A stretch of DNA of 9,351 nucleotides from a bacterium (GTDB lineage: Bacteria; RBG-13-66-14). Positions 4,269-6,912 of this stretch are shown here, piece after piece. Position 1 is the stretch's first letter; every line of letters starts with the position of its first letter. The stretch covers positions 1 to 9,351 of the forward strand of contig DATKYS010000056.1 of NCBI GenBank assembly GCA_035528375.1, written 5' to 3'. Under the pieces are notes generated by a model, which searched no databases, was not told the DNA's origin, and saw only the letters and a program-made list of their open reading frames with translations. The position numbers and the translations under genes were made by a program.

Positions 4269-5385
4269 ATGGATGATATGCAGGAGAGCCTGGAACGCGC
4301 CCGTCAAGCCGTCAGCGACCTCTGGGGGTGCCTTTGACCCGGAGGCCAAACGAAAGCGGCTGGATGAGCTGAACCGCCGCATGGCCGAGCCCGGCTTCTG
4401 GGGCGATTCTCAGGGGGCCGGCAGGCTCACCGCCGAGGCCACCCGCCTGACCGGGGAGCTCGACCGCGCCGAGCGGCTCAAACACGAGCTCGCCGACCTC
4501 GAGGAGCTGGGGGGGATGGCCCGGGACGAGGGCGACGCGGGCGAGCTGGCGTCCGTCGCCGAGGAGCTGGACAAGCTGGCCGACCGCGCGCTGGCCCTCA
4601 CCGCCCAGGCGCTCCTCTCCGGCCCCTACGACGACCAGGACGCCATCGTCGAGCTGCACCCCGGCGCCGGCGGCACCGAGTCCGCCGACTGGGCCGAGAT
4701 GCTCCTGCGCATGTACACCCGCTACTTCCAGCTCAAGGGCTGGAAAGCGGAGCTCCTGGAGATAACGGCCGGCGACGAGGCGGGCATCAAGTCGGCCACA
4801 CTCGCCGTGCGCGGGGACCTCGTCTTCGGACACCTGCGGGGCGAAATCGGCGTCCACCGCCTGGTGCGGCTCTCCCCCTACGACGCCAACCACCGCCGCC
4901 ACACGTCCTTCGCCGCTCTCTACGCCTACCCCGACCTGGACACCGATGTCGAGGTCGAAATAAACCCCGACGACCTGCGCGTGGACGTCTTCCGCTCCTC
5001 GGGCCACGGGGGGCAGTCGGTCAACACCACCGACTCCGCCGTGCGCATCACGCACCTGCTCACCGGCATCACGGTGAGCTGCCAGAACGAGCGCAGCCAG
5101 AAGTACAACAAGGAATCCGCCATGCGGGTGCTGCGGGCGCGGCTGGCCGACCACTACCGCCGCGAGCGCGAGCTGGAGATTGCCGACTCCAAGGCCGACA
5201 AGCGCGACATCGCCTGGGGCTCGCAGATTCGCAACTACGTCCTGCACCCCTACCGGCTGGTGAAGGACCCGCGCACCGGCGAGGAGACCTCGAACGTGGA
5301 CGCCGTGCTGGACGGGGACCTGGACCGCTTCGTGGAGGCGTACCTGCGCTGGAGCCACGGGAAGGAAGGGAAGAAAAATGGCTAG
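4269..5385 (+). CDS. prfB: Peptide chain release factor 2, with programmed +1 frameshift
   Basis: RF2 recognises UAA and UGA in the ribosomal A site and triggers hydrolysis of peptidyl-tRNA. The coding sequence is 4269-4334 joined to 4336-5385, giving 371 residues (E. coli RF2 has 365). The first 22 codons (MDDMQESLERARQ...) start at ATG 4269 with AAGGAG 5 nt upstream and end at CTT followed by TGA. A +1 shift over T4335 continues as DPEAKRKRLDEL and on through MAEPGFWGD. Later motifs are GAGGTES in domain 2, the stop-recognition tripeptide SPY at 202-204 (normally SPF) followed by RRHTSF, and GGQ at 247-249, the glutamine being the PrmC target. WGSQIRNYVLHPY and the final VLDGDLDRFVEAYLR match RF2 rather than RF1. 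A naive call starting at ATG 4273 gives 21 wrong N-terminal residues. The stop overlaps the next gene by 8 nt. Confidence 0.96.
4323..4338 (+). promoter_or_regulatory. prfB: prfB programmed +1 frameshift site
   Basis: The site reads TGG GGG TGC CTT TGA C in the zero frame. The slippery CTT is at 4332-4334, the in-frame stop TGA at 4335-4337 is followed by C, and the internal Shine-Dalgarno-like GGGGG (4324-4328) lies 3 nt before CTT. This is the same spacing as in the well-studied AGG GGG TAT CTT TGA C of E. coli. Low RF2 slows termination at TGA and favours the shift, so RF2 autoregulates its synthesis. Confidence 0.94.
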
Positions 5386-6277
5386 AAAGAACCAATTACA
5401 GATGTCATCCATCGGCGCGCAGATTGAAGAAACGAAATACGATATTTTCAACTGTGACGCCTTCGAGTGGCTGGGCAAACGAGAGGCGAATTCGATCCAC
5501 GCGGTAGTCACCGATCCGCCTTACGGGCTTCGAGAATACGACGAGGATCAACTGGAAAAACGGAAAAACGGAAACGGCGGCGTCTGGCGTATACCACCGG
5601 CGTTTGACGGGCAAAGCCGCAGCCCTTTACCGCGCTTCACGGTTTTGAACGGCGATGATATCCAACGGCTGGGGCAATTCTTCACGAAATTCGCGCGCGG
5701 TCTGTTGGAAGTTCTGGTTCCGGGGGCACACGTATTCATAGCCACGAACCCCCTGGTATCGCACAACGTAGACCTGTCCTTCATCGGATGCGGCTTCGAG
5801 AAAAGGGGCGCTATCATCCGAAGGGTTATCACCCTTCGTGGAGGGGACAGGCCGAAAAACGCCCACGAGGAGTACCCCGACGTAACGGTAATGCCCCGCT
5901 CGTGTTGGGAACCCTGGGAATTATTTCGCAAACCGCTCGACGGTACAGTCGCCGGGAACCTGCGGAAATGGAAAACGGGTGGTTTGCGGCGGATTTCCGG
6001 AAAAGAGCCCTTTAAAGACCTGATTCCGTCCTCGCCCGCCCGGGGTGCGGAGAGGGAAATCGCCCCCCACCCCAGCTTGAAACCGCAGGAGTTCGTGCGG
6101 AAAATCGTCCGGGCGAGCCTCCCCCTCGGAGAGGGAACGGTCCTCGATCCGTTCATGGGCTCGGGCTCGACCGTCGCCGCGGCGGCACACCTCGGCTATC
6201 AGTCAATCGGGCTGGAAATCAACGAGGAGTACTACGACATGGCGGTCACCGCCATTCCCAACCTGGCCGCACTTTGA
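5378..6277 (+). CDS. Beta-class site-specific DNA methyltransferase (N6-adenine or N4-cytosine)
   Basis: A 299-residue amino-methyltransferase acting on DNA with SAM. The motif order is that of the beta class: the catalytic TDPPYG (motif IV) comes first at 45-50, and the SAM-binding part comes last, with HPSLKP at 231-236, DPFMGSGST at 257-265 and GLEIN at 278-282. DPPY favours N6-adenine but does not exclude N4-cytosine. The start ATG overlaps the prfB stop (ATGGCTAG, 8 nt), with purine-rich AAGGAAGGGAAG just upstream, so translation is likely coupled to prfB. Base composition is visibly less GC-rich than in the flanking genes, suggesting acquisition with the next gene. Partner of a putative restriction endonuclease; the recognition sequence cannot be read from the protein. 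Confidence 0.9.
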   Translation: MARKNQLQMSSIGAQIEETKYDIFNCDAFEWLGKREANSIHAVVTDPPYGLREYDEDQLEKRKNGNGGVWRIPPAFDGQSRSPLPRFTVLNGDDIQRLGQFFTKFARGLLEVLVPGAHVFIATNPLVSHNVDLSFIGCGFEKRGAIIRRVITLRGGDRPKNAHEEYPDVTVMPRSCWEPWELFRKPLDGTVAGNLRKWKTGGLRRISGKEPFKDLIPSSPARGAEREIAPHPSLKPQEFVRKIVRASLPLGEGTVLDPFMGSGSTVAAAAHLGYQSIGLEINEEYYDMAVTAIPNLAAL

Positions 6278-6294
6278 GGAACCGAGGTAAGACG

Positions 6295-6396
6295 TTGAGT
6301 TATGAGCTGGATAGATCGGTCCCGCTGCCGCCGCAGCTCACCGCGGACCAAATCCACCGCGCGGTGGAGTACGTCGAACGTGAGGCGACGGAGTGA
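6295..6396 (+). CDS. Short 33-codon frame: N-terminal part of the endonuclease, closed by in-frame TGA
   Basis: TTG at 6295 has GAGGT 6 nt upstream and lies 17 nt after the methyltransferase stop, which is good start context. It encodes 33 residues beginning SYELDRSVPLPPQLTADQ after the initiator and ending in a probable helix (IHRAVEYVEREATE). The frame is closed by TGA at 6394-6396 and the very next codon in the same frame is the ATG of the putative endonuclease. The predicted helix would run naturally into MDVYFEQKNIFSAF. The simplest reading is one gene of about 200 codons (6295-6897) split by a nonsense mutation or sequencing error. Alternatives are a translated leader peptide with reinitiation at 6397 (GGAG at 6390-6393), or UGA readthrough. 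Confidence 0.6.
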   Translation: MSYELDRSVPLPPQLTADQIHRAVEYVEREATE

Positions 6397-6897
6397 ATGG
6401 ATGTGTACTTCGAGCAGAAGAACATCTTCAGCGCATTCGTCGGCATTCTGGGTACCCGAGCCCTCGATTCGGTATCGGTCTACGAGAAGAACCGACAGAC
6501 CGACCTCGCCCAAACCCGCTTCCCGGACCTAATTCGTAGAGGAAGCGGTGAAAGGCCATCCCCCAACGACTGCCTGGAATCAAAGGCCAGTATAAGGCCC
6601 TGGGCCGTTCAAGCCCACTACAACCACGAGGGCTGGTACATTATTTGGAGATACCTCATTGATAAAACGATGAGCATCGAAGCCGAAAAACCCGTAATCG
6701 TCTGGCGGGTTGACGTTGTATATCTAAAGTCTGCGGATTGGAAATACGAGGGGAGCGGCGCGGGGCCCGGCGGCGGCGGGCGCACGCACACCTTCGGTGT
6801 GGATAAGCCGGCGGCGAAGTTGAAGGGGAAAGCCCTTTATAAAAGGACGGACTTGACGGTTAAGAATGGCAAACCCGTACCGAAGAACCATAAATAA
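6397..6897 (+). CDS. Putative type II restriction endonuclease, PD-(D/E)XK-like
   Basis: A 166-residue protein directly after a DNA methyltransferase. A plausible PD-(D/E)XK nuclease core is visible: PD at 43-44 in TRFPDLI, then E61-S-K63 in CLESKAS, preceded by a conserved-looking FVGILGTRALDS. Further on it has aromatic stretches (HYNHEGWYIIWRY, 74-86; VIVWRVDVVYL, 100-110) and a Gly-rich GPGGGGRTHTFG loop at 123-134. Pairing with the methyltransferase and the ExK motif support a restriction enzyme, but I do not recognise the exact family. The first ATG follows an in-frame TGA, and 33 upstream codons in the same frame (6295-6396) probably belong to it, so the enzyme may be N-terminally truncated or inactive. 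Base composition is lower in GC than flanking genes. Confidence 0.7.
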   Translation: MDVYFEQKNIFSAFVGILGTRALDSVSVYEKNRQTDLAQTRFPDLIRRGSGERPSPNDCLESKASIRPWAVQAHYNHEGWYIIWRYLIDKTMSIEAEKPVIVWRVDVVYLKSADWKYEGSGAGPGGGGRTHTFGVDKPAAKLKGKALYKRTDLTVKNGKPVPKNHK

Positions 6898-6912
6898 TAA
6901 AACGTAACCAAA

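Follow-up and report, generated by a model that had tools for sequence, protein, structure and literature searches.

A probably recent nonsense interruption of a putative restriction nuclease gene beside an intact methyltransferase gene downstream of prfB

A methyltransferase–nuclease pair downstream of prfB

The window, by which we mean the whole 9,351-nucleotide stretch of DNA that was analysed, belongs to a 2.63 Mb genome bin (G000) congeneric with Candidatus Coatesbacteria RBG_13_66_14. It carries the release factor 2 gene prfB, whose true start is the ATG at 4269 (the start at 4273 of the mechanically called open reading frame lies in the wrong frame), and, with an ATG that overlaps the prfB stop codon, a DNA methyltransferase gene followed by an interrupted nuclease frame (Table 1). 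The order of the methyltransferase motifs, with motif IV (DPPY) first and FMGSGS later, is that of the beta class; the conserved catalytic motifs are present and the gene is intact.

Table 1. Coordinates of the features of the prfB–methyltransferase–nuclease region within the window
Feature	Position	Strand	Basis or remark
prfB (release factor 2)	4269..5385	+	Pfam PCRF and RF-1; adjoins the restriction-modification pair on its 5' side
Beta-class DNA methyltransferase, intact	5378..6277	+	Pfam N6_N4_Mtase 1.7e-20; PADLOC MTase_II PDLC03215 1.2e-111
Nuclease ribosome binding site, GAGGT-type	6284..6288	+	CGAGGT conserved in sister G001
Nuclease gene, 5' segment, 33 codons, TTG start	6295..6393	+	matches the N-terminal region in intact relatives
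In-frame TGA	6394..6396	+	Leu here in relatives, Trp in one
Remainder of nuclease gene, 166 codons from ATG	6397..6897	+	FPD...LESK, HYNHEGWY, RTHTFG; possible reinitiation product

Because the frame at 6295–6897 combines an F-P-D ... L-E-S-K signature with an adjacent methyltransferase gene, its protein is most readily understood as a nuclease. The earlier note's PD...ESK motif is indeed there, with about 17–19 residues between its two halves; FPD and ESK, and with them the D, E and K of the motif, are invariant in a 13-member family alignment, L062 having ECK. Beyond a weak profile match to the partners of related methyltransferases, searches of Pfam, NCBIfam, PADLOC, PHROGs and the PDB returned no match for the nuclease, and homologues were likewise absent from the plasmids, phages and viral contigs that were searched; structure prediction from three distinct sequences reached a pLDDT of 38. 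The locus thereby exposes a nuclease family that is missing from the searched domain libraries.

The methyltransferase gene lies directly 5' of the nuclease gene at nearly every Acidobacteriota locus where enough of the contig is available, and the two travel together across two phyla. By its anatomy, the locus is a type II-like restriction-modification (R-M) pair with putative cleavage activity. Over 93–94% of its length, the methyltransferase shares ~60% identity with enzymes encoded on plasmids of Klebsiella, Citrobacter and Mycobacterium. In the two plasmid pairs that were inspected, those of Citrobacter and Mycobacterium, it is adjoined by nuclease-like proteins of 201 and 307 amino acids, which share with the window's nuclease a layout consisting of an N-terminal LPxxL helix, PDL and E-(I/V)-K; these proteins are only distantly alignable, over most of the nuclease profile and with an hhalign probability of 87–92%. 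Unlike these plasmid-borne pairs of the PDLC03215 group, the window has an interrupted nuclease.

Within the methyltransferase gene, a tract at about 5558–5860 differs by ~20–30% from both sister species, which are only ~5% apart there; it looks like a product of recombination or gene conversion.

The interrupted frame and its homologues

Translation of positions 6235–6900 bears out the earlier description of a TTG-started frame, preceded by GAGGT, that is broken by a TGA and resumes at an ATG: after TTG 6295 and 33 codons comes TGA 6394–6396, and ATG 6397 then opens 166 residues closed by a TAA at 6895–6897. The TTG aligns with a GTG start in both sister species, a predicted helix spans the break (in a structure model of low confidence), and 3' of the TGA the nuclease sequence shows no further damage to the frame.

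Two of the three congeners, G001 and G002 (MFAF01000050.1, Candidatus Coatesbacteria RBG_13_66_14), carry prfB, methyltransferase, nuclease and class I methyltransferase genes in the same order as the window. In both, the nuclease is unbroken and has Leu at the position of the TGA; it measures 203 residues from its GTG in G001 and is open throughout in G002, but with a run of N near the 3' end. Profile searches found the nuclease in 17 of 399 Terriglobia genomes and in 6 of 396 Acidobacteriota genomes. One Terriglobia locus, L003, is ~50% identical and likewise continuous at the junction, and about 18 full-length Acidobacteriota homologues read through it, nearly all with Leu at the TGA position; L034 has Trp there, and L062 a small local indel. 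The comparison called for in the earlier note thus finds continuity over the junction and mostly Leu in place of the stop. Among the two sisters and the ~18 full-length Acidobacteriota copies, none starts at the residue encoded by ATG 6397, and an in-frame TGA at the position of the window's stop occurs in no homologue examined. A weak match (L021) lies in a 778-residue frame that encodes an unrelated, sensor-like protein, and was set aside.

Moreover, the 33 residues upstream of the stop are matched residue by residue in the two sisters and ~18 more distant genomes, and conserved in the N-terminal part of the 13-member alignment are LPP, E30 and a predicted helix that continues to Y40-E42-Q43, with LPP and helix residues located ahead of the junction. 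Since homologues are continuous over the junction, the 33 residues are a conserved part of the nuclease, an incidental upstream frame is ruled out, and what lies beside the intact methyltransferase gene is a single nuclease gene that has been interrupted.

Two bases of the TGA codon and one of the next codon depart from both sisters, so that three window-specific differences fall within 5 nt; in a shuffling test, this clustering did not reach significance (P about 0.12–0.18). The earlier wording of a single point mutation is therefore not quite right, as the stop codon itself is two bases away from either sister. The change in the following codon, Ile to Met at 6397, is unique to the window and places an ATG directly after the TGA.

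The same differences bear on whether the stop could have come from a mistake in assembly or consensus calling, or from a minority strain. The source is apparently a metagenome-assembled genome, and this is the sole disrupted copy of the nuclease in the genus, both sisters being intact; however, two differences in one codon and a third in the next exceed what a single miscall would produce, and the rating of the bin is 100% completeness and 0.28% contamination, so that an origin of this kind is quite improbable.

Reading of the TGA codon

Release factor 2 (RF2) reads TGA, and a CTT-TGA-C site for a +1 shift is the classic means of its autoregulation. The window's prfB has such a site at 4332–4338, and the methyltransferase gene of the pair is closed by a TGA, where the sisters use TAA; these two features indicate that TGA is a stop codon in this genome and rule out an alternative genetic code in which it has another meaning.

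A full-length nuclease could still be made if the TGA at 6394 were read through or recoded, be it as Trp, as selenocysteine or by programmed readthrough. Trp does occupy this position in one homologue, and a strong tRNA-Sec gene (75 bits; L042, G000:C36:5509-5602) is encoded in the genome, on the strength of which the genus probably uses selenocysteine elsewhere. Selenocysteine at 6394 was nevertheless rejected, no homologue having Cys or Sec there, and the RNA flanking the stop has only a small folding advantage over shuffled sequences (z −1.4). With RF2 and its TGA frameshift site encoded next door and a TGA terminating the neighbouring methyltransferase gene, readthrough, which the earlier note had offered as an option, is disfavoured because TGA acts here as a normal stop; such a reading is very hard to credit.

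Selection, possible reinitiation and decay

Relative to the sisters, the part of the nuclease after the stop has a dN/dS of 0.04–0.05, lower than in any neighbouring gene tested, and the 33 codons before the stop one of 0.11–0.18; for the methyltransferase, the value is about 0.10–0.13. Along the window branch, 12 synonymous and 4 replacement changes have accumulated 3' of the stop; the 33-codon part, whose length does not suffice for a branch count, has 1 and 2, respectively. The ratio of replacement to synonymous changes after the stop is 4:12 on the window branch versus 3:35 in the sisters, a difference that is not significant (Fisher P 0.18). Under free evolution, 12 synonymous changes would be accompanied by roughly 40 replacements, an estimate based on the counts of N and S sites; with 4 observed, constraint can have been absent over no more than about a fifth of the branch. 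As synonymous changes so far outnumber replacements after the stop, the gene would either have been broken recently or still be under selection.

The second possibility corresponds to a gene fission, in which translation terminates at TGA 6394 and reinitiates at ATG 6397 to yield a 166-residue core, alone or with the 33-residue peptide, and restriction persists. The juxtaposition TGAATG, the restriction of the Ile-to-Met change to the window, the strong constraint on the part after the stop, and GGAG 3 nt and GAGG 11 nt 5' of the ATG all speak for it. However, the bases of these Shine-Dalgarno-like stretches already belong to ordinary codons in the sisters, hence did not evolve for a restart, and the constraint can predate the stop. 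The homologues offer neither a naturally split copy nor one that begins at 6397, a product from 6397 would be without a segment kept by every full-length homologue, and the break falls inside the helix predicted, at low confidence, to span it. Altogether, persistence of restriction by reinitiation is unlikely. A more elaborate version, in which stop and start are coupled and a two-piece nuclease (the 33-residue peptide plus the 166-residue catalytic part) is held at low and tightly limited levels relative to the methyltransferase, is somewhat less likely again; extended still more speculatively, it would let the efficiency of termination at TGA 6394 link nuclease output to the level of RF2. 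Whichever holds, the TGA-ATG arrangement offers a clean natural test of the ability of reinitiation to rescue a nonsense codon that comes early in a gene.

The best account of 6295–6897 is that it encodes the restriction nuclease of a type II-like pair by prfB and has recently been broken by a nonsense mutation with the methyltransferase left intact, which is probable on the present evidence. The nonsense codon, 33 codons or one sixth of the length into the frame, would have been acquired in the lineage of the window, recently relative to the split of the sister species; the full-length nuclease would then not be made, so that restriction would be lost or strongly reduced, and the intact methyltransferase would keep marking the DNA, on its way to becoming an orphan. 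Here, we infer a need for the N-terminal segment in nuclease activity and a loss of restriction in living cells; even the distant plasmid-borne nucleases, partners of the 60%-identical methyltransferases, align over the same N-terminus. Against a recently broken gene count the window-only ATG after the TGA, such as selection for reinitiation would leave, and the undamaged frame that follows; perhaps some N-truncated product arises by reinitiation at the TGA-ATG. Among the alternatives that the earlier note had put forward, recent nonsense inactivation is thus the best supported and reinitiation an unlikely candidate, and its point-mutation wording is not quite accurate.

Breaks of the nuclease recur elsewhere in the family. 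A frameshift precedes RTHTFG in L003/L022, where the methyltransferase is intact; L027 (G562, Terriglobia) has an in-frame TGA at the Trp of an RPW motif together with a Glu-to-Gly change in the nuclease motif; L035 combines an N-terminal loss with a frameshift; and L037 and L038 hold only fragments (L036, which ends at a contig end, was left out of this tally). Judged from the sequences, these breaks probably represent independent decay, although some could be assembly errors, the genomes being largely metagenome bins. The family thus appears prone to repeated degeneration, with the neighbouring methyltransferase left intact in at least one case.

The break in the window fits the known pattern of ordinary R-M decay. 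Damaged R-M genes turn up frequently in REBASE (PMC4687349), and for type II systems a route of decay has been described in which the restriction enzyme is lost and the methyltransferase kept (PMC6471742). Nuclease loss of this kind being already well known, the interest of the window lies in an R-M system caught early in decay, of which two sister species still have unbroken copies. Like decayed systems with an orphan, or solitary, methyltransferase, it has an intact methyltransferase, a broken cognate nuclease and intact copies in close relatives; unlike them, its nuclease has so far acquired one early stop, the rest of the frame being intact.

In relatives without the R-M pair (L010 of G003 and L011 of G006), other restriction-like or unknown genes follow prfB: an Mrr-like protein in G006 and, in G003, two open reading frames, one of which resembles the N-terminus of the G006 protein. 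Because of these genes, the site 3' of prfB may be a small hotspot for defence genes.
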